NCBI GenBank assembly: GCA_001606155.1
Contig: LODT01000039.1
Coordinates: 1-64,000, forward strand
Length of the DNA: 64,000 nucleotides
Direction: 5' to 3'
Source: Tieghemostelium lacteum
Lineage: Eukaryota > Evosea > Eumycetozoa > Dictyosteliales > Raperosteliaceae
How positions within the stretch are numbered: the first letter of the stretch is position 1; each line of letters opens with the position of its first letter. Below the pieces are notes generated by a model. The model made no database searches. It saw nothing but the letters and a program-made list of their open reading frames with translations, and was not told the DNA's origin. Below, in pieces: positions 11,962-27,103 of the stretch. The translations under genes and the position numbers were made by a program.

Positions 11962-13990
11962 AAATTTTTTTTTGTGGCCTGTGTAATTAGCAATACGCTA
12001 ATACGGCGGCAATCAGTTATATAAGTTAATTTATTGAATTATATTTTTGGTTACATTAGTTTATATATTGTTGTTAATTTGTTAAGTTGGGTTGTATTAT
12101 TGTGAGTAATTTGTTTTTAGTGTTGTTTTTTTTTTGGTATTCTTCATTTCCTTGTTTCTTCTTGAGGTGTAATAATATTTCAATTGAGTGATCTTCTAAT
12201 TGGTTCAAGTTGTGTGATTTTTGTTTTTGTTTTTTTTTTTTTTTGGAATATGTTTAATTGTGTGGAATTGGGAGGGGTTTAAGAGGAGTTTGGCCAACTC
12301 CTATTGAATACAGATTTTAGCAGGACATCATCAATATTACCTTTGATTTTAGATTGATACGCTAGGTATTTAAGTAGTTTCCATTTTGCCGTGTTGATGG
12401 TGTCTATCTGTTCTTTTTGGATTATAGCAGTGTTCATTTCGGGATGTCAGTTTCAAAGAGATTATAGCATACAATTTTCCACTTTTGGTGCATTACTATC
12501 GAGATCAAGTTAGGATATACTTTTTCTGTTTTGTTGATAGTGGTCAGGTCAGTAGCATGAATGTTCCAGAGGTGTATCTTTTTGAATGATAGATGGTTCA
12601 CTATTTGGACAATAGCAGGGGCATATGACGTCACATTGCATTGGAAGAAGAAGTGGACATATGGATCAGTGATCGATTGACGACATGAATCTATTGGACA
12701 GTTCATTCTTTGATGGTTGATGCCAGGAAGGCAATCTGAAAAGTGTGTTTCTTCCTTTGTGGTGGATAACTTTGGATATCTTTTGTAATATACCGGTGAT
12801 GTTGATATTATACCGTAGGTTCTTCTGACCATCTGTAAGTCTAATGGACGTGTATTTCTTAATGACTAGGTTGGCGTATATGTCTCTGAGTTTGATTGGT
12901 CTGTTAGACATGTTTCTGAATCCATTTACCCACTTGACATCTTCAGTTTCTTCATTTAGTTTATTCAATTTGGGCATGGTAGCAGCGTGGTTGGTTCTGT
13001 AATCTTTCCAAGCTTCCATTTGATTTCTCAGAATGCTAGATACTATTCTACCTGTTGTTACTTGTTGAATATACCACTGTTGGACTTCATTACATTCTCT
13101 ATCAAAGTGGATGCATAGGAGTCTATTCATGTTCCATATCTTGAATGCTTCTTGTCTGAGTTCCAGATCCCACATCTTAATACCACCAACTTCCCAGTCT
13201 GCATAGGCTCTGTCCATTGTCATTAATGTTTTGTATTTTGTCTCTGGTTCGAAAGTGTTTCTCATAGAAGAGAATAGGAACCATGTAGACACGTTGTTGA
13301 CTTTCTCTATTTGTTCTTTGGTCATCGAATCTATGTAACATTGGTAGGTTAGCTTGGATAATGCATAGGTTTTAAGGATAGACATTTTTGATCTAAGGGT
13401 GTAACCTTCTTTTTTCCAGTTGCTTAAAAGTACTGTTATTTCCTCTATTATTTGATCTATTTTGCTATTCAGCCCTTTACCTGTGAAATTTAAACCCAGG
13501 TATCTTTCAGGGACATCACTCAGTTGGAATGGGAGGTTTGTAGGAGTACTTTTTCCAGTTGCAATCATTATGGTCTTGTCTGCATTTAGAGATGAAGATG
13601 TATCTTTACAGTAGAGCTTGATCCATTCCAAGACTTTGTTGAGATCATCAACTGATGAGTTGATGGAAGCTATGTCGTCAGCAAAAGCTCCAATCTTAAT
13701 TGGTGTTGTCAATCTTTTTAATAAAATCCCTTTGATTTCTTTGTCATTTAAAATAGCTTGGATTAGAGGTTCTATAACTATTGCAAAAATGGTTGAAGAG
13801 AGAGGGTCCCCTTGTTTGGTACCTCTCTTTATAACCACTTCTCCTGACATAGTATTGTTCACTTTCACTCTGTTAGAAGCCCCTTTTTTTTGATAAAGAA
13901 AAATAATAGAAATAGTTTGCATTTTCACTTCCATGTTTCCTTAAACAAATTTTGAAGTTCTTAATTTGCCACTTGTTGATTTTTGTTTTT
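11962..13990 (-). mobile_element. 5'-truncated LINE (TRE-like non-LTR retrotransposon), copy 1
   Basis: The minus strand carries the reverse transcriptase part of a LINE ORF2. It shows RGTKQGDPLSSTIFAIVIEP and the catalytic FADD box (IGAFADDIASINSS), then the long C-terminal region ending with the cysteine-containing CLPGINHQR...PIDSC segment. The element ends at a poly-A tail (poly-T at 11,962-11,972 on the plus strand). The coding region changes frame near 12,735 and again near 13,890, so it is dead. The 5' half, including endonuclease and ORF1, is missing. It is colinear with the copy at 23.3-24.7 kb but well diverged from it, so it is an older or different subfamily. It has inserted into the gene fragment at 11,626-11,961. 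Confidence 0.9.
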
Positions 13991-14021
13991 TTTGTATTTG
14001 ATTTTTTTTTTTTGTATAAAT

Positions 14022-14429
14022 ATGACAACAATTTGCAATATAGTTGATAAATCAAAAGTTGGTTGCCCTGAACGACCTTCTTACATAAAATATATTTCAA
14101 AACAATTGAAAAAAGAACAAAAAACACCCCCACCATTAGAGTGTGTTGTATGTGGTTGTAATTATTCAGAAGGTTGTCCAAATAGAAAGCACACCAAATG
14201 CGGAAATTGCAAATCACATAGCTATGAATCATGTCAATTACAAGGAGCACATATTGCTGTTGGTACTCACCCTGATCATCATGGAAATACAAAGTATCCA
14301 GTTTATCTTGTACCGATGTGTAAATCGTGCAATCTCCAACAAAGGGGTTGTTTTTTTAAAATCAAACTTGATAAAAATTATGTGGTAGAGAACTGCAAAG
14401 GAACCAGAAAACAACTTGGCTTAGATTAA
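14022..14429 (+). CDS. Small HNH-like zinc protein
   Basis: A 135-aa frame from ATG at 14,022, following a T-run. It contains CVVCGC, CPNRKHTKCGNCKSH, then GAHIAVG and YLVPMCKSCNLQ. The order Cys pairs, then GAHI, then PxCxxCN is that of small HNH-fold zinc proteins found scattered in protists, bacteria and viruses. Nuclease activity is possible but not shown; I see no fused DNA-binding domain. It starts about 30 bp beyond the truncated LINE and is compact and intact. It lies upstream of the recombinase gene, separated by the decayed gene. Possibly cargo of a mobile element or a domesticated gene. Confidence 0.6.
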   Translation: MTTICNIVDKSKVGCPERPSYIKYISKQLKKEQKTPPPLECVVCGCNYSEGCPNRKHTKCGNCKSHSYESCQLQGAHIAVGTHPDHHGNTKYPVYLVPMCKSCNLQQRGCFFKIKLDKNYVVENCKGTRKQLGLD

Positions 14430-14727: not shown

Positions 14728-15966
14728 CCTGAATAAAATCATGTAATCCTCTTTTTAGATTATCATAGTTTTCTTCTCCTCGAAATATTAAAAATGGATT
14801 GGATTCTCTTTTGGATTTATTATTATCAAAATAGATAAGCAACCAACTTCCTGGTCATTAGCATGGTTTTTGGACATTACAGCACCATCAAAGTGAACTG
14901 GTAACACTATTAACCATCGATCACTTTTTAAACCCAATTCATTATGGTATTCAAATTTTGGTCTATTAATACCATTTAACTAAATTAAGATCATCAAGTA
15001 CAATTAATATATAAACATTGTATTTTTGTATGCACATTTATATATGACGTGGATATTTTAGCTGAAATAAACTTCTGACATGTTGATCAAAATCCAACAT
15101 ACAACCAATCATTCGTCTAACTTGTAAAAGCTTGACAGTTAGATCATCTATTATTTTTTTATTACTTTTTTAATTCTATAGGTAGAAACAGTTATTGTGT
15201 TAAAGTTCATTTTAACCATAGCTTTTTTTACATTTTCGAATGATAAACTATTAGAAACCTTAAATGCAGCTTTATCATACGAATTAAAATTTAAATCATA
15301 TATTAATAAATAAATTTATAAACAGCTATTATATTTATATTTACTCTTGGTTGATTGGAGAGTATGTTCTGCACTAGCTACTTTCAATAATGTGTTATTT
15401 TTTATCATGGTACAACCTTTACAATGACTTACTATATATTCTAATTAGAACCCTCATCAAAATTTTCATGATGAATTTATGTAAGCAATAGGTTTTTGAG
15501 GTTACTTTATTACAACCTAAATGTGGACAAATATTTGAGGTTTCAGATTCACTCTCTTCATCAGAACTCTCTTCATTCTCTTCAAATTCTTCTTCTAATT
15601 GTTGATCTTCATCAGATTCACTTTGATAGTCAGGATTGTAAGACTTAAGTTATATTAAGGATAGTTATATTAAGTTCTAAAGTGTTATATGTATCTTTAA
15701 CGTACTATAGACCCTACTGAACCACAATGGTTAATGTTTATTATATATGTTTATTAGAGACCCTAGATCTCTTAATATTACTATATATGGAAATGTTACT
15801 AGTTTTGTCTATTGTTCTATACTAAGACAAGTTACCTAAACAGACCAATGTCTGACACAGGATCATTAATAATATCTGTATTATCATCACTATTTTCATC
15901 ACATTCAATATTTATCATATTATGTCTTTTACAAAAATTATTATCAACATCTATTAATACATCAAC

Positions 15967-16365: not shown

Positions 16366-18450
16366 TTTTTTTATATATAAATAAACATTTTAAAGTTTAA
16401 TAGATAATTTAAACAACATTCTAGTATAGTTACACAACTTCAAACATATGTGATTTCCACGGTTTATTATTATTATCTTTATTATTATTATTATTATTAT
16501 TATTATAATATTTGATTATTAGAAAAATTTATTTTAATATTATTAGTGGTCAATTAAATATTTTATTTATAAAATTTCTTTATATTTTTTTTATCCAAAA
16601 TGTCTACTTTTAAAATAGATACAATAGAAAAGCTTTTTAATCTATTAAATTTAAACAATAATAATAATGTTAATAATAATAATAATTTTGAAATATTATT
16701 AAAAAATACATTAGAATAAGATAATTTTGTTTATATTTTATTAAATTATAAACAAAGTGAAAATTTTATAGATATAGTATTAAAATTAAAATCAATAGCT
16801 TCAATAAATTCTAAACCATTTAAAGAAATTGAATTATGTACAAATCAATATGGAATTATGGTAGTTTTATTTTTATATTATTTGATTCACTAGATATCAA
16901 TCATTGTATATATCAAAATTTTAATTATAATTAGAAATGAATTTAAGTAACAATAATATAGACTTTATAAATAATAATATTCAAATAAATATACCATATA
17001 AAGATACAAAAATACCTCTTAGAATAGATTTAGGATTGATACATTTATCCTATCTGATTTTTAAAAGTAAAAATTCTATTTTGGATAATAATAATAATAC
17101 AACAACAACAAAAATCAATTTAAAAAACCAATTTTCAAAGAAAAAAGTAAATTTACAATGTTTGGGTAGTGGTCATACATCATGTGGTTGTAATCATTAT
17201 AAGAGAGAATTACACTATCTATCATTTAAACCAAATGATATTTCAAATTTTGAATTGTTGAATTTAAATTTACCCAATGGATGGGTAGAATTTAAAAATG
17301 AATTTAAAGATTTAAATTCATAGTTAATATTATATCAACACATGTCCATTATAAATCATAGAGAGATAGTAAATCCAGAGAATAGAGAAGATATTGTTAT
17401 TACATTTGATACTAGAAAATTTAAAGGAAAAGAAAATCTTTTTTTAAATGGTAATCAATTAGTTGAACATTTAAAAAAAAATTGTCAATTAATACAATTT
17501 CTATCAACTAAAGATTATCATTTAAATGGTAAAAGAGGAAGTTATATTGCAATTTGTTATAGTGCCAAAAAAGATTTGGATAAAACTATAATTTTTAAAT
17601 TTGGTAATTTTAGAATGGTATGTAAGATTTTATATTTTTTTTTTTTTAATCAAAATCAAGTGATCATCTAACAGATTTTTATTAGATACCACTAGATCAA
17701 TCATATGAAAAAAAAACAAAATTAACAATAGATAAAATTTTAACACCTAGAAATCTACAAGCTCTGAATGCATCCATTCAATCAAAAATCAATCATATTA
17801 AACTATTAAGAATTAAAAATTCTAATCAAAATAATAATAATAATAATAATAATATAGATTATGATAGAAGACAACTATTAGAGTTTATTCACAATGATTG
17901 GCAAATAGAAACCAATAATATAACTAAAACACACAACAATACTCATTATATAATGACAAGAGCCAGTACAAATAATGAATGGAACAAGTCAGAGATTATA
18001 CTAAGTCAAATGGTAAATGGTTTAACGTGTAATCATATTCTCTATGAAAATCTTTGTCATAATTTGGCTTTCTCTATTGAAATTGTATCTGTTATGAATT
18101 TTAAAGTAACGGATAGAGCTCAGCAAATGAAAGTATTGACTAAAGTCAAGTTTGGTGATGTTATCTTTTATAATTCACCTGATAGGTTTTCTCGTAGACA
18201 ATCAGATTTTAGAATTTTGGTAAATATACTCTCTAAAGTTGATTGTGATTTGATTTTCTTCAATTCACCATTCCCAGAGATTGATGGTTATTTGGTAAAA
18301 TTAAATTTCTTTCGTCAGACATTAGAATTGGTTAAAAAGAAGGAAACTACAGAATTACCTGGTAAACATATCACTTTTCAGTGGTATTTATCAAGTTTGG
18401 ATGAATATTTCCCCGTCTATCTTTCTCTCTCAATGGAGCATGGTCTTTAT

Positions 18451-18672
18451 TGTCAGACATTGGTCTGTTTAGGTAACTTGTCTTAGTATAGAACAATAGA
18501 CAAAACTAGTAACATTTCCATATATAGTAATATCTAGAGATCTAGGGTCTCTAATAAACATATATAATAAACATTAAACCATTGTGGTTCAGTAAGGTCT
18601 ATAGTACGTTAGAGATACATATAACACTTTAGAACTTAATATAACTATCCTTAATATAACTTAAGTCTTACA
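18451..18672 (+). repeat. 5' LTR
   Basis: 222 bp, TGTCAGACATTGG to GTCTTACA. By eye it is identical to the 3' LTR. Confidence 0.92.
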
Positions 18673-19189
18673 TGACGATAACTTAGGATTTTAAAACCTC
18701 ATATTATTTATCTGTTAAAAATTATTTTTCAAAAGTCAACATTTATTAAAAATGGGAAAATGAAAAATTTAAAAAATCTATATAGCAATGGTTTAAAACA
18801 TTTGGTATGTAAAAATGGTTGTTTGTATACCTGACAATGACAAGAGATTTTACATAGAGGCTGATGCTTCGCTAGATAGAGTTGGATACGAACGTATACG
18901 AAAAGATTAGGGTAGATGTGCTTATAATATTTAATGATGATGTGGAATCGGTGGTTAGACCTGAAGGTCTGGATAGGAATACCGATAAGGGTATTGAGAT
19001 TGATGAATCTCTGCAGATTGACTGGATGTCAATAGTAATAGTAATATACCATATGATATGGAGGTTGATGAACCTTTGAAGATTGGCAAGGAGGCCAATA
19101 GAGAATTATGGAATAAATATATTACGAGAACCACTGATTCAAACAATGACTGTAGTGATGGGACCGATGGTGCTGCAACACGAGATATA

Positions 19190-19560
19190 ACGTTAGTAGA
19201 TGGGTTGATGGTCTTCAACCGGGTACTCTACAGGATATAACGTTAGTAGATAGGGTTGATGGTCTTCAACCGGGTATTCTACAGGATATAACGTTAGTAG
19301 ATGGGGGTTGATGGTCTTCAACCGGGTATTCTACAGGATGAAACGTTAGTAAATAGGGTTGATGGTCTTCAACCGGGTACACTACAGGATAAACTTTAAT
19401 AGAGGGGTTGATGGTCTTCAACCGGGTACACTACAAGATAAAACGTTAGTAGAGAGGGTTGATGGTCTTCAACCGGGTACACTACAGGATGAAACGTTAG
19501 TAGATGGGGTTGATGGTCTTCAACCGGGTCCACTACAGGATATAACGTTGGTAGAAGGGG
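19190..19560 (+). repeat. 51-bp minisatellite inside the LTR element
   Basis: About seven tandem units of near 51 bp, with core GGTTGATGGTCTTCAACCGG and CTACAGGAT. In the open frame each unit encodes 17 residues such as VDGLQPGTLQDETLVD. The core contains the palindromic TTGATGGTCTTCAA. Units differ slightly in sequence and length. A degenerate last unit (GVVGQQPVLHND) merges into the downstream ORF. Confidence 0.9.
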
Positions 19561-20522
19561 TTGTAGGTCAACAACCTGTACTTCACAATGATCAAATGCA
19601 AGTAGATCTACAAGGAAAAAGGTATAATGCTGGGAAAAGGGTAGTAGATGAGGTTGTAAACCAACAACTGGTAAGTTTACTGCCAGAGGACAGGGCTAAA
19701 AGGGTGACTGATATGCTCGTAGACGAGGTTGATGGTGACGATTATCAATCTGGGACTTTACAACATGTAGTGCACCAAGAGTTAGCAGGAGTCCAAGGTA
19801 AAAGCATTATGGGATCATTGGATAGTAGTGTCTCTACGGAATCTGGAAATACCAAAGGAAAAAGGTGGGTGGAGTATCTTCAACGAAATTCCAGAAATGG
19901 TGATGAAGAAGCCGCTCATAGAATATTGGATGATTTACTCATGGATATTGAGAAGTTCAAAAAGATAGAATTAGAATCTTACATTGATATAAAGAACTCA
20001 AATCATCTGAAAGAATGGATAGAAATTCTAAAGAAAGAAAAAGACGAAAGAACCAACAAATGGAGGAATAATGTTATAGAATTATTTGAGCTAGAGGAAA
20101 AGGAGCCAACCAAGACTAAAGAGATTGCTAGTCTAGTTGAAAAGATACTTAACTCTAGAATGGGTGTTGGAATGTTACGTATAATGGCTAAAAGATGGGT
20201 AACTGGTAAGAGAAAGAGTGCTAAGAAACATGTAGAATATTTAGTACAAATATCTAACCAGAAAAAGTGGTTCAGCTCAGAGGAACTTAAAGACAAAGGT
20301 TATACCAAGGATAGTGTCAATTACAATCAAGAGAAATCAAATGTCTCACAAGCTACCAAAGATATTGTGAAAGAATGTCTGCAAGACAAATATAAAGATC
20401 AAGTAGTGACATCACTGTTAGTACTGTCTGATAAGTGTGGTGGTGTACTATTAGAAAAGCTGTTCCAAGTCTTAGATAAGGATCCAGAAGTCTACATTCC
20501 ATCCTAAGAAGAAAGGGGGGAT

Positions 20523-20744
20523 TGTCAGACATTGGTCTGTTTAGGTAACTTGTCTTAGTATAGAACAATAGACAAAACTAGTAACATTTCCATATATAGT
20601 AATATCTAGAGATCTAGGGTCTCTAATAAACATATATAATAAACATTAAACCATTGTGGTTCAGTAAGGTCTATAGTACGTTAGAGATACATATAACACT
20701 TTAGAACTTAATATAACTATCCTTAATATAACTTAAGTCTTACA
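20523..20744 (+). repeat. 3' LTR
   Basis: 222 bp, same sequence as the 5' LTR, preceded by the purine-rich tract and followed by CTTTAT. Confidence 0.92.
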
Positions 20745-22352
20745 CTTTATTCACTAAGACATGTTGAAATTTGTAAAGTCTTAGAGAAAACCTATGCAAG
20801 TTTAACAACTGCAAAACATGATCAAGTACTTTCAAAAGTATTTAAGATCTTTAAATACCCTGAGAATCCTTTGAATTTAATTCAAGGAATACAAAAGCAA
20901 CCAGTTGCCACAATTGATCCAACTGTTATCATCTTTTCAAGAACTTCTTCTGGAATGGGTATTGGTGAGGGTGATTCAATTGAATTACAAAATGAACTTA
21001 TATCTAGTCTTTATGAAGGTATAAAAACAATTGCATCATGTTATAGTTTTCAACCTCCACATGAATTTCTAAACTTTGAAGGTTTGAATACAACCAAAGA
21101 AAAGTTAGCTTTAGTTTCTAAATCAACAGATAACTTTCTTATCTATAATCTTGCAGAATCTTCTGCTCCTGGATCAGTTTTTCTTACCACTGCTATTGAC
21201 AGAACTTTTCGTTGTAGATATTTCCTTGAACATTTCTATAATACCTACAAGAATAAGGTTAAGATTATTACATTGTTTCCTCCTCAACCTGTACTTTCTA
21301 AACTTATTCAAAATAATCAACTAGAAGATGCATTTTTAAATGTTCCAAAAAACATTTTTAAGTAAATCAGAGGTTAATAGTAATAATCCATCTATTAAAA
21401 CCTATTTGGATTATGTTAAAAAACTGGTTCTTAAACATGAAAGTATTTTTAATGGTACTCAATGCTTTAGAGCTATATTATTTCCAATGGTTTTGGAAGA
21501 TAATAATTTTAGTCTTTTTTCTGATGCAGTTGAGAATGCTTTCAAATTCAGAATTTATTATCATGCATCACACACTCATATTGAACTGGGAAAATTAAAA
21601 AGTTTTCAAGTTGATAAAACCAAAGACATTGAAAGTCATTGCTTATTTGCTTTCTATAATTGTTCCATAAAGTTTGATAATCATACGATATTTGAAACTA
21701 TCCAAAACTCAATTGAACTCCATGAAGGTAGAATAACTGTTAATGGTAAAAATAGAACCATGATATATTCTGGTAGTAGATACTTATCTGATGGATATAA
21801 GTTTCAAATTTTGGTAAAAGATTTTTACCAACAGTTACAAAAAAAGTTGATAAATATTAATTTCAAGTTAAATTTGGAAACCAATGTTAACAAATTACTT
21901 GAAAATGAAAATTCAACTGATGAAGAAAAAACTGATAATGATGAGAAAGAAGTTGATAATAATAATGAAGAAAGGAGTGAATCAGAGACTTCCAAAAAAA
22001 AGAAACCTAATATACAAAAAAGAAAAGAGCAAAAGGAAATGGTAGAGAAACTCCACAACCATTATCACCAATATAATCAGCTTCCATCTTTTCAAAATCC
22101 TAAAGAAACAATTATAACAGAAATGAATCATATGATAGGAATGTACAAATCTTTAGCAAAACAAAATATCAAAAAGAGAAATATTGAAAACATTTCAATT
22201 TTAAATAATAATAATAATAATAATAATGATGATGATGATTATTTGTAAGAAATTAAAAATGTAAACATTAAATAAAATTGATCAAATTTTTTTGAAATAT
22301 TATTATTATTATTAATGTTATTATAAAAAATCATACATTTTCAACCTTGATA

Positions 22353-22436
22353 CTGATTTCACACCAAATTATTTACAATATCTATGGTATTTATTGTTAT
22401 CACTAGTATTGGTAACGAACGAAATCAGTGTGAGAG
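22353..22436 (+). mobile_element. Small TIR element, partial copy C
   Basis: Starts CTGATTTCACAC and ends GAAATCAGTGTGAGAG, imperfect inverted repeats of each other. It shares ATCACTAGTA..GGTAA with copy B. A second end-like motif AATCAGTGTGAGAGG follows at about 22,478. The stretch 22,249-22,631 is otherwise AT-rich with no gene. Confidence 0.5.
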
Positions 22437-22631
22437 TTTAAAAAAAAAAAAAATAAATAAAATAGAGTGCACCACTTTAAATCAGTGTGAGAGGTTAAGA
22501 CTGTCTCATTAACAAAATAATTTATTTATATGTAGTGTCGTTTCAAATCCTCATATTAAAAGTGATCAACTAAGAGCATTTCTTACCTGTAGTGAAACAC
22601 CCTTACTAGTCGCTTAAAAACCTATAGGTTG

Positions 22632-22821
22632 TTAATTTTTTTTAGTTTTTTTTTCTCCAATTGGAGAACTTAAGTTTGAACCAACATTTCCACAAATACC
22701 TGTATTTGAATAGTATGCAGCTTCGTATATTCTTCTGTAATCTATAGCATACTTCTGTTTTCTATAATAATTTAGTTGCTTTTTTTCTCTCCAATGTCTC
22801 TTCCATCTTTGATACAATAGT

Positions 22822-22897
<76 letters not shown>

Positions 22898-23060
22898 GAA
22901 GGTGTTGTCCATATTGATTTACTAAGTATATCAATACTATTACTATAGTTACTCCCTGTACTATCTCTAGAACCACTACCTCCCAATAGAGAATCACTAG
23001 AAGTATTATTATTACCACCACTACTACTATTACTACCTATACTATTATTTAATATACATG
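22632..23060 (-). pseudogene. Fragment of an unknown gene, copy 2
   Basis: Minus strand: a Ser/Asn-rich region, KSIWTTPST, a long (ACA)n tract encoding poly-Thr (about 22,824-22,900), TIVSKMEETLERKK, then in another frame QLNYYRKQKYAIDYRRIYEA and AYYSNTGICGNVGSNLSSP. The frame change falls in an A-run after ERKK. The same protein pieces occur at 11,626-11,961. The triplet run can also be read as poly-Gln, but the flanking conserved words support the Thr frame. No family recognised. Confidence 0.6.
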
Positions 23061-23138
23061 TATATTTGATGAATATATAATAATGAATGTTTATTTTGAT
23101 TCTCCCCCAACCCCTTTTTTTTTTTTTTTTTTTTTTTA

Positions 23139-23569
23139 ATCTCTTACACTGACATATCACAGTTTTTCGAATATAATTTTTAAACTTTAAAGTGTAATTA
23201 GCCGTTTTAGCGTATTGCAATTGTCAGAGTAAGAGATATATGTCAGTGTAAGATTTTTTTTTGGACCTGTGTAACTAGCAATGCGCCAGTACTACGGTAA
23301 AGTCTTAATTACGTTTATTTATTGAGAGGTATTATCTGTTAAAATTGTGTTGTGGTTGGTGTTAAATGGTATTTATCTTGGTTTTGATTGTTTTGTTTTT
23401 GTGATGTGAGTTTTGATTGCGAGTTGTGATTGATACATTTATGTTGTGATAGGTGTGTTCTTCTTCTTGTTTTTGTTTTCTTCTTATGGGGTCTTCTTGT
23501 TTTAGTTCTTGTTTGTAAGTTCTTCTTTATTTTCAGTTGTTCAAATTGGAATTTTACTATTATTATTAT

Positions 23570-23616
<47 letters not shown>

Positions 23617-24735
23617 TACTTTTAATTGTGTGGAATTGGTAGAGGATTGTAAACTGTTTGCCAGTTTCTATTGAATTCAAATTTAAGTTTAACATCGTCA
23701 TTGGAGTTGTTGATCCTTGATTGGTAGTCTAGGTATTTTAGCAGTTTCCATTTGGCGATGTTGATTGTTTCGGATAGTTCTTTTCTTATTATAGCTGTGT
23801 TCATTACAGGTGGTGGTTTATTGGATTTGTCAGTTTCAAAGAGGTTGTAACAGATTATATTCCACATTTGGTTCATTATTATAGCCATCAGGGTTGGGAA
23901 TGTTTTCTCATGGTGGCTGATTTGATTTAGATCTATGGCATTTAGACTCCAAGAGTGGATTTTCTTGATAGAGAGTTGGTTGACAATGGGAACAATTTCG
24001 TTACAGTGTTTAGTTGATAGCTTACAGTTGAAAAAAAAGTGGATGTATGGGTCAGAGAATGTTAAACTACATTCATTTAGAGGGCATCTCTTTCTTTGGT
24101 GATTGATGCCAGGTAGACATCTTGCAAAGAATCTAAAGAAGGTGTTTCTACCTTTGTGATGAACAATTCTAGCAATTCTAGGGAATATACCTTGTAGATT
24201 AAGGTCTAGTTGGAGATTGGATTGGCCATCAGTCCTTCTAACTCTAGAGTTGTATTTCTTGATGGTCAAGTTCTTGTATATATCTCTTAACTTGATGGGT
24301 TGATTGTGGTCATTTCTAATCCCATTTACTATTTTGATATCACCTATTTCATCTTTTAGCTTTCTTAGTTCAGGAGTCGATCTGGCGTGGTCTTGTCTAT
24401 AGTTTTCCCATGCATCCACTTGTGGTCTGAGAATATCGGAGACAATCTTTTTGTTTTTGATTTGTTTAATGTACCATCCTTGGAACTCGCTAACATTATT
24501 ATCATGGTGTAGACAAAGCAGCCTGTTTAGATTCCATATCTTGAAGGCTTCTTGTCTTAGCTTTAGATCCCATAGTTTTATACCTCCTTGCTCCCATTCT
24601 GCATACGCCCTGTCCATTGTCATCATTGTTCTGTAGTTTTCATCTTCATTGAATGTATTCTTTATTGAAGAGAATATGAACCATTTAGAGACATTCATGA
24701 TTTGGCTTATTTGTGCAATGTCAGTGTAAGAGATT
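23139..24735 (+). mobile_element. TIR element next to tRNA-Pro, split by a LINE
   Basis: A 20-bp terminal repeat AATCTCTTACACTGACATAT starts at 23,139. Its inverted partner ATGTCAGTGTAAGA lies at 23,240-23,253, and a further copy ending GAGATT at 24,718-24,735, because the LINE has inserted in the right end. The similarity extends outward through a long T/A run to CCCCCAACCC, which at the right side abuts the tRNA-Pro gene. The element or inverted duplication thus starts directly 3' of the tRNA. The core shared between the ends is only about 110 bp. Confidence 0.6.
23254..24717 (-). mobile_element. 5'-truncated LINE (TRE-like), copy 2
   Basis: Minus strand, 1.46 kb. A frame at 24,698-23,622 encodes the ORF2 C-terminal region (DRAYAEWEQGGIKLWDLKLR and RCLPGINHQRKRCPLNECSL), colinear with copy 1. 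A 3' UTR of about 350 bp follows, ending in a poly-A tail at 23,254-23,262. A 14-bp target duplication ATGTCAGTGTAAGA flanks it (23,240-23,253 and 24,718-24,731), so the boundaries are exact. The 357-residue piece is open, so this copy is younger than copy 1, but it lacks the reverse transcriptase and cannot move alone. Its 5' end faces tRNA-Pro, about 36 bp from the tRNA 3' end. Confidence 0.93.
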
Positions 24736-24766
24736 AAAAAAAAAAAAAAAAAAAAAAAAAGGGTTG

Positions 24767-24837
24767 GGGGACTAGCGAGAATCGAACTCGCGTCTCATTC
24801 ACCCTAAGAATGAATTCTACCACTTAACTATAGTCCC
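24767..24837 (-). tRNA. tRNA-Pro (anticodon AGG)
   Basis: Minus strand: acceptor GGGACTA/TAGTCCC, D-loop AAGTGGTA, anticodon stem CATTC/GAATG with loop TTAGGGT (anticodon AGG), T-arm GCGAG-TTCGATT-CTCGC, discriminator C. The D-stem is short and has one wobble pair. No intron. A long T-run follows after CAACCC and would terminate Pol III. The 99-bp repeat lies 67 bp upstream. Confidence 0.93.
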
Positions 24838-25116: not shown

Positions 25117-27103
25117 AGGGTCTGGGCATAGGTACGCCTTTAACAAAAACGAAAAACGTCATTCTTAAAAAAATTTCAAAAATCAAACATTTCAATCAAA
25201 AATAAAAGAATTAAAAAATTTTATTTTCTAGTCACACAACAACAATGAGCGAAACTATTAGCCAAACCAGTTCGGATAGTAATTCTAGCACTAGTGGATC
25301 TTTAATTTGGAAGAATTTCAGCATTAACCAAAAACAATCATTTGATGTTTGTAATACTATTTTGGGTTCAACACAAGAACAGTTGGAAAGTTTGATTATA
25401 AAAGCAATAGTTGCTGCTTACCTACCATTCTCAATAACAGAGATTCCAGAATTTAGTAGACTTTTGAGTTTCGGAAATTCTTTTTTAAAAATCCCCAAAG
25501 GGGATGCAATAAAGAATAAAATTGATAAATTGTTTTTAACACAAAAAAAACAAATAATTTCTTTATTTGAAAAGGTGGATGCTATTTCCATCTGTTCAGA
25601 TGTGTGGTCTTCACCTCATGTTCAGTACGTATATCAAAATTTTTTTGGGATTTTTAAAAATTAACAAAAATTTTTGAATATTTTTCTTTTTTTTTTTCTG
25701 ATCAGATATCAAATTTTAGGTGTAACAACTCATTTTCAACTAAATGGAACTAAATACCATCTTCCGTTAGATTTAATAGAAATCTCTGAAAGTCATACAG
25801 CTGAAAAGCTATCAAAATCTGTTTTTGAAACATTACAAGAATTTAATCTTCATACAAAATTGGTATCAATTACAACTGATAATGGTTCAAACATGATAGC
25901 TTTAGGTGAACCATTAAAACGGTTAATACAAGAATCAATTGGGAATGTTGGTTTATTCAGAGGTAACAAAAGCAGAATTAGATGTTTGGCACACACATTT
26001 AACCTCCCTGCACAGACATTTTCTGAAAATTCAGATATTAAAGAGATAATAATGATTTTCAAGAGAATTACAAAAGTAATTCGAAAATCAGGAAGAACTA
26101 GGGAACTATTTAGAGAATGTTGTGAGCTAAAAGGATACAACAACCTTATAACCAAAATAGATGTCTGCACTAGATTCGTATCAAAATTAGAAATGGTGGA
26201 GAATATGTTAGATTTAAAACCTGTTATTAATTATTTTTTTTCTAAACTAGATGAAAAAACAAATTATTACAGTAAGAGTGGATCTAATAACAAAAAGATA
26301 GTATTATCAAATGCACCCACAGAGATTCAGTGGGATAAATTACAAATTATAAAAAGTGTATTAGAACCATTTGGACAAATAATTAGATTAGTATCAGCCG
26401 AGGATTGGTACGCTTCCAATTCACTACCTGCTTTCAACTACGTACAAGAAAAATTAAAAGAATTTATCTTTTTAGCTAAATCAACAAAAGAAAAAAAAAA
26501 TATGGTTTTTTGAAAGAGGCACTGGAGGAATCCTATGATCATTTGGAGAGATATTATGTATTAACTGATGAAACACCACTATTGGCACTATGCACAGTCT
26601 TGCATCCATGCTTTAAAATGGATTTCTTCAAGGAAAAATGGGTCCATCATCATCCCGAATATATAGAAATAGTGGAAAAATATTTAAGAGATGAATACGA
26701 ACAAAGGAAATCTATAGACAACTCAGATAGTAATCAGGAAGAAGATATTCAACAACATAGAAAGGTTGGAAATATGGAAGAATATTTTGGAATTCCACAA
26801 ATAAATCGATTTTGCGACTCTGAAATTGATGAATATTTAAAACTACCCAGAGCAACAGCAGATTATTTCAAGACTCCCCTCAAGTGGTGGTACAACAATC
26901 AAAACTTATTTCCTACACTTTTCAAGATGGCAAAGGATTATTTGATTATAGAAGCCACTTCTATATATTTAGAAAGGTTATTCTCTTCATCAAAACACAT
27001 TGTGCGACCTGAGAGATCATCTCTTAGCTGCAAATCAATTGGAACCTTAACATTATTAAAAAAATGGAATAAATTCATTGAAGAAAATAATGAATTATTC
27101 TAA
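25117..27103 (+). mobile_element. hAT DNA transposon, transposase disrupted
   Basis: The transposase gene starts at 25,245. Exon 1 is 25,245-25,624; an intron GTACGT...CAG (25,625-25,705) is removed in frame; the second exon runs to 27,103. Recognisable hAT features are CSDVWSSP, GVTTHFQLNG, VSITTDNGSNM, IRCLAHTFNL, and the C-terminal dimerisation block TPLKWWYNN...LERLFSSSKHIVRPERSSL. The frame changes by one within the ten-A run near 26,497, so the copy is inactive unless that is a sequencing error. No BED zinc finger is seen at the N-terminus. A left terminus may be TAGGGTCTGGGC at 25,117; its inverted partner was not found on the right. Confidence 0.88.

Follow-up and report, generated by a model that had tools for sequence, protein, structure and literature searches.

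A broken single-copy gene of Tieghemostelium lacteum with a probable serine-recombinase domain and a candidate second one

We describe a gene of the dictyostelid Tieghemostelium lacteum whose product would have carried one domain that very probably belongs to the serine recombinases (D1) and, farther along, a candidate second domain of the same kind (D2). The gene lies in a window of 64,000 nucleotides (bases 1-64000 of contig LODT01000039.1, one of the 43 contigs in the 23.33-Mb genome that we searched for further copies). The initial annotation, made from the letters of the window, had read it as one gene with two serine-recombinase-like domains, already dead. We find that the gene is indeed broken, that it is present once in the genome, and that the two domains are supported to very different degrees.

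Gene structure and breaks

On the plus strand, the reading frame opens at the ATG at 16937, is interrupted by an intron after 17617, continues from 17686 to 18450, resumes at 20751, and ends at the stop codon at 22246-22248 (Table 1). Counted from that ATG, the intact protein would have had roughly 980 residues, probably laid out as an N-terminal part that contains a small cluster of Cys residues, D1, D2, and a charged tail ending in Asn. Codon scores, trained on nine long open reading frames (ORFs) of the window, are 0.26 to 0.31 bits per codon for the pieces of the gene in their own frame, versus at most 0.08 in the other frames. The score is 0.257 over positions 21376-22248 of the C-terminal part and turns negative in the exon frame within the intron (17621-17685 tested). 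We rejected bacterial contamination in view of the intron and the host-like codon usage.

Table 1. Features of the recombinase-like gene and of the retrotransposon inserted in it
Feature	Coordinates	Strand	Basis
Upstream ORF, interrupted by an in-frame TAA (16717-16719), that may or may not be a first exon	16600..16860	+	codon scores, Pfam
Exon 2, with ATG start, C-x7-C-x-C cluster, and in-frame TAG at 17321-17323	16937..17617	+	open frames, codon scores
Intron, GTATGT...TTAG, phase 0	17618..17685	+	read from sequence
D1, first part of exon 3; very probable Resolvase-type catalytic domain with RAS, TDR, GDVI, and DRFSR	17686..18450	+	profiles, alignment
Target-site duplication CTTTAT, left copy	18445..18450	+	junction sequence
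Long terminal repeat (LTR) retrotransposon, probably non-autonomous, inside exon 3 between D1 and D2	18451..20744	+	LTRs, target-site duplication
Target-site duplication CTTTAT, right copy	20745..20750	+	junction sequence
D2, exon 3 continued; candidate second resolvase-like domain with IIFSRTS, SIELQ, FEG, and IDRTFR	20751..21362	+	motif template, alignment
C-terminal part, ending in an acidic/Lys-rich and Asn-rich tail and the stop codon at 22246-22248	21340..22248	+	open frame, codon score

In exon 2, the open stretches 16931-17323 and 17324-17671 share one frame, and the codon scores flanking the TAG are 0.261 and 0.284 bits per codon. Two further Cys residues accompany the cluster, for which the "Cys-rich N-terminal region" of the initial annotation is a generous label. 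Family scans of this exon returned chance-level matches only (Pfam NifT, E value [E] of 0.26; PHROG 9568, E 0.23), and the C-terminal part matched no family over the cut-off in Pfam, NCBIfam, or PHROG. The ORF upstream of exon 2, with which the initial annotation had begun the gene, has positive codon scores on either side of its TAA (0.178 and 0.256 bits per codon) and matches Pfam DUF1031 at E 0.014, under the cut-off. Reading by eye, we saw no GT-AG pair that would splice it in frame to 16937; we therefore rejected it as a certain first exon.

The insertion that now separates D1 from D2 was not reported in the initial annotation, and the description of a single gene holds once this element is set aside. 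The insert is 2.3 kb long and is bounded by two identical LTRs of 222 bp each (18451-18672 and 20523-20744) with TG...CA ends. Eighteen matches to the LTR occur in the genome, and eight of these form four pairs spaced 2.0-2.7 kb apart that resemble full-length elements. The identity of the LTRs makes the insertion a recent one. Given its shortness and the lack of any Pfam match above the cut-off for its largest ORF (the weak match to MrpR_C_cat, E 2.2e-4, falls under it), the element is probably non-autonomous. We rejected this ORF as a part of the recombinase-like gene. The element also contains imperfect repeats at 19189-19611, and a solitary LTR of the same family lies at 15637-15857 on the minus strand.

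There are two further breaks: exon 2 contains the in-frame TAG, and the frame changes somewhere in the region from about 21340 to 21365. An excerpt of the paper on the published T. lacteum assembly gives 454 reads as its source (PMC4931340). If the sequence analysed here is that assembly, the frame change could be a sequencing error, because the region is rich in homopolymers; the insertion could hardly be one. We regard the breaks as established. This copy of the gene is a non-functional pseudogene, and the earlier call of a dead copy is now more strongly grounded, given the insertion in addition to the TAG and the frame change.

Evidence for the two domains

The motif strings that first drew attention to the gene are present in the plus-strand translation, with TRASTNN...SPDRFSRRQ in 17686-18450 and FSRTSSG...SIELQNE...IDRTFR in 20751-21365. 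For D1 we regard family membership at the level of sequence as established, and this domain is very probably a serine-recombinase domain. The hidden Markov model search with PF00239 (Resolvase) that the initial annotation had proposed retrieves D1 at E 6.5e-4 and 20.2 bits, under the cut-off (20.7 bits in the genome-wide search), and PF00239 is not among the Pfam matches of D2 at E <= 10. In the host genome, this model has no match other than D1 at E <= 10, and the identical search was positive in 10 of 14 control genomes. It also matches PHROG 125, "DNA invertase", at E 0.0043 over residues 91-192, the serine included. With a profile built from 12 phage and plasmid recombinases, D1 scored E 5.2e-7 among 751 sequences, and the runner-up (D1's own ORF excluded) was a shuffle of D1 at 0.17. 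An hhalign comparison gave a P value of 1.1e-5 and a probability of 82%, and none of 300 shuffles or 422 decoy windows reached the mean pairwise score of D1.

The alignment places the Arg and Ser of TRAS, the Arg of TDR, the GD, and DRFSR on family-conserved positions, which in resolvases are known as catalytic residues. The motif order of the family (Arg two positions before Ser, third Arg, DRxxR) is likewise followed in the alignment and in the motif template. That an Asn-rich amoeba protein came to this likeness by chance or by convergence is highly improbable: PF00239, PHROG 125, and our own profile agree, and the block score of 23.9 compares with maxima of -0.5 for 106 ORFs of the same genome, -5.6 for 300 shuffles of D1, and 6.5 for 3000 shuffles of D2, so that none of the ORFs or D1 shuffles approaches it. 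What speaks for chance is the Pfam score below the cut-off, the missing NCBIfam match, and the failure to find any close relative.

D2 carries the order RxS, Q, DRxxR, and a template of the family motifs was matched by 5 of 30,000 shuffles of D2 and by none of the 106 same-genome ORFs. In the alignment, a Lys sits at the position of the third Arg. Family scans of D2 gave chance-level, non-recombinase matches only (Pfam Aurora-A_bind, E 0.14; a PHROG without known function, E 0.21), and NCBIfam and the PDB returned nothing. That D2 has the same fold as D1 is, in our judgment, only just short of an even chance. The two serine-recombinase-like domains of the initial annotation are thus upheld for D1, by profiles, decoys, and alignment, and for D2 in motif order alone.

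A number of observations weigh against a recombinase with two such domains, and some of them touch D1 itself. Its score of 20.2 bits is below the curated Pfam cut-off of 23.3 bits; it has no NCBIfam match at E <= 10; and its five sequence matches in the PDB (E 0.45-0.88), none of them a recombinase, were taken as chance. Most of the significant matching falls in the second half of the domain, and only PHROG 125 and the alignment extend to the serine. Moreover, four of the tests (own profile, block score, hhalign, and pairwise score) are not independent, because their recombinase sets overlap. Most of the remaining points concern D2. The template was written with D1 and D2 already in view and is also matched by 24 of 30,000 shuffles of D1; its predecessor suffered from overfitting (recall 2 of 12), and we draw no evidence from it. 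The D2 block score was reached by 168 of 3000 shuffles, and the hhalign P value is 0.46. On two profiles of our own, the scores of D2 were reached by 1666 and 381 of 5000 shuffles and by 66 and 23 of 106 genome ORFs, and its mean pairwise score was reached by 82 of 300 shuffles and 176 of 422 decoy windows. Similarity between D1 and D2 is not detectable (BLASTP, E 2.5), and no relative was found that could supply evidence of selection on either domain.

These results lend considerable weight to a different view of D2, namely, that D1 alone is a serine-recombinase domain and that D2 is an unrelated segment with a chance motif order, the protein being a single-domain recombinase with long extensions. 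We consider this a serious contender, somewhat short of an even chance: neither the libraries nor the profiles and alignments lift D2 appreciably above chance, and the two domains do not align; set against this is a template that so few D2 shuffles and none of 147 other ORFs satisfy, and its occurrence alongside a true D1 in one gene. With D2 scoring no better, or hardly better, than chance in profiles and alignments, we consider the tandem arrangement plausible rather than established. The fuller proposition, that one polypeptide held two serine-recombinase folds, an active D1 and an altered D2, as a fused asymmetric pair belonging either to a domesticated system or to a dictyostelid element not yet described, is a tentative one that we would put well below an even chance. 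A phrase search of the open-licence literature found no report of a tandem arrangement of serine-recombinase domains.

Copies, relatives, and origin

Queried at the protein level with D1, D2, and the C-terminal part, the genome showed no second copy; one match to D1 at E 0.48 was taken as chance. At the DNA level, positions 16560-18450 matched the gene itself and, within its pair of AAT-repeat tracts, produced 23 short matches, and positions 20751-23300 matched the gene itself, one stretch of 70 bases at the Asn-coding tail, and repeats beyond the end of the gene. We regard it as established that the gene is single copy in this genome.

Searching 5.8 billion proteins with D1 and D2 as the only queries yielded 1079 and 515 candidates, respectively, none at E <= 1. 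These E values are scaled to the 5.8 billion sequences and candidates require shared 5-residue words, and remote relatives may for these reasons escape the search. Dictyostelids are represented in the collection, as a control protein of 619 residues from the window found 29 matches, including P. violaceum (64% identity), D. purpureum (60%), and H. album (58%). Viral contigs yielded no relatives when D1, D2, and the C-terminal part were used as queries, and a yardstick recombinase (L006) likewise found nothing in them; prokaryote genome contigs yielded no relatives of D1. Among plasmids, D1 matched only three records at E 2-8, one of them annotated as a recombinase, and among phages only one unannotated record at E 7; D2 matched one plasmid record at E 5 and no phage.

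The explanation that we favour, and to which we give an even chance, is that the locus is the pseudogene of an intron-containing, single-copy dictyostelid nuclear gene with a catalytic D1 and, probably, a diverged and possibly inactive D2. Resolvases and invertases cleave DNA through a serine linkage and exchange strands within a dimer or tetramer. By this precedent, and judging from its sequence, the D1 serine would cut DNA to form a phosphoserine link while conserved arginines in the active site hold the phosphate, and the strands would be rejoined within a dimer or tetramer in the manner of resolvases and invertases. If D2 is real, it may have served as a fused, built-in partner or scaffold and not as a second cutter, as a Lys replaces the third catalytic Arg. 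The Cys cluster and the charged tail could, conjecturally, have contacted DNA or other proteins. The most likely source of the gene would be mobile or extrachromosomal DNA that was phage-, plasmid-, or virus-like, and the host-like codon usage and the intron suggest a capture long ago. Loss would have come through a nonsense mutation, the recent retrotransposon insertion, and a frame change.

An old gene, captured and later lost, fits better than a mobile element. The initial annotation had raised the possibility of an undescribed dictyostelid mobile DNA element, with a dead copy of its recombinase at this locus. Serine recombinases mostly move or rearrange DNA, and the neighbourhood includes, besides LTR elements, an ORF matching reverse transcriptase and a dimerisation domain of the hAT type, all of which would suit such an element. 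Nevertheless, we think it unlikely: instead of several copies with shared ends, no second copy as protein or DNA, short simple repeats aside, was found in the 23.3 Mb of the host genome, and the repeat downstream begins at about 22442, past the end of the gene, with other copies that lack any match to the gene. Less likely again is an integrated gene of a Ddp-type nuclear plasmid or of a DNA virus, with a recombinase for replication or copy-number control. An excerpt of PMC11962162 describes nuclear plasmids in Dictyostelium discoideum and a tyrosine recombinase encoded by the yeast 2-micron plasmid for its own use, and the lack of a close bacterial or phage relative would be compatible with such a source; against it, searches of viral contigs with these two domains and the C-terminal part (D1 and D2 being the domains) found no relative.

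A serine-recombinase gene that is not of the IS607 type, in a dictyostelid and without relatives found, would represent a new route of entry. If D2 is real, the fused asymmetric pair would permit a direct test of which subunit activity is needed for strand exchange. The value of the locus for such work is limited by the broken state of this copy and by the fact that no intact relative was found.

Several other features surround the gene. Directly downstream, the repeat at 22442-23059 has at least 18-20 partial copies elsewhere, at up to 91-94% identity. Farther on, 23140-23250 and 23254-23300 comprise a short near-inverted repeat, ttacactgacat / atgtcagtgtaa (by eye), which resembles a miniature inverted-repeat transposable element, and an adjoining 47-bp stretch that occurs identically at no fewer than 11 places in the genome. 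On the minus strand, a retroelement ORF with an RVT_1 match (E 3.9e-11) occupies 12666-13940, and a related one without a Pfam match occupies 23622-24794, the blocks in common having been recognised by eye. A hAT transposase-like gene spans 25215-27103 on the plus strand, with Dimer_Tnp_hAT at 26480-27103 (E 6.9e-16); the ORFs preceding 26480 were assigned to it by eye, and 25665-26510 has only a RhoGAP match under the cut-off. At 13986-14429, also on the plus strand, a Cys/His-rich ORF of about 147 residues has no Pfam match at E 0.01; by eye, it has an HNH-like appearance.

Comparison with known serine recombinases

Of the small serine recombinases (Cin and Hin invertases, gamma-delta/Tn3 resolvase), a set of invertases was aligned with D1, which matches them at RxS, an Arg in the TDR position, GD, and DRxxR. 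They differ in that D1 stands in the middle of a protein of about 980 residues encoded by a gene with an intron, and in that no helix-turn-helix domain was found after D1 in the downstream pieces scanned with Pfam. With the large serine integrases, the likeness is on the side of D2, whose spacing from S to Q and EGxSIxxQ pattern recall two phage integrases (L013 and L051). In contrast to these integrases, Pfam finds no Recombinase or zinc-ribbon domain downstream, and PF00239 misses D2.

Few eukaryotic nuclear genomes are known to contain serine recombinases. Excerpts of two papers describe such cases, an IS607-type serine recombinase in the nuclear genome of Saccharomyces kluyveri (PMC2715888) and Fanzor2 elements with a serine recombinase in Acanthamoeba and giant viruses (PMC3627910), and the eukaryotic nuclear cases in these excerpts are of the IS607 type. 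Unlike IS607 TnpA, the amoeba gene has no N-terminal DNA-binding domain that Pfam, NCBIfam, or PHROG could find in exon 2, and unlike the Fanzor2 elements, it came without a match to Fanzor or TnpB in any of the scanned pieces and ORFs, the whole genome not having been searched for one. What it shares with IS607 TnpA and the eukaryotic IS607/Fanzor2 elements is a probable serine recombinase within a eukaryotic nuclear genome; it departs from them in domain order and in length.

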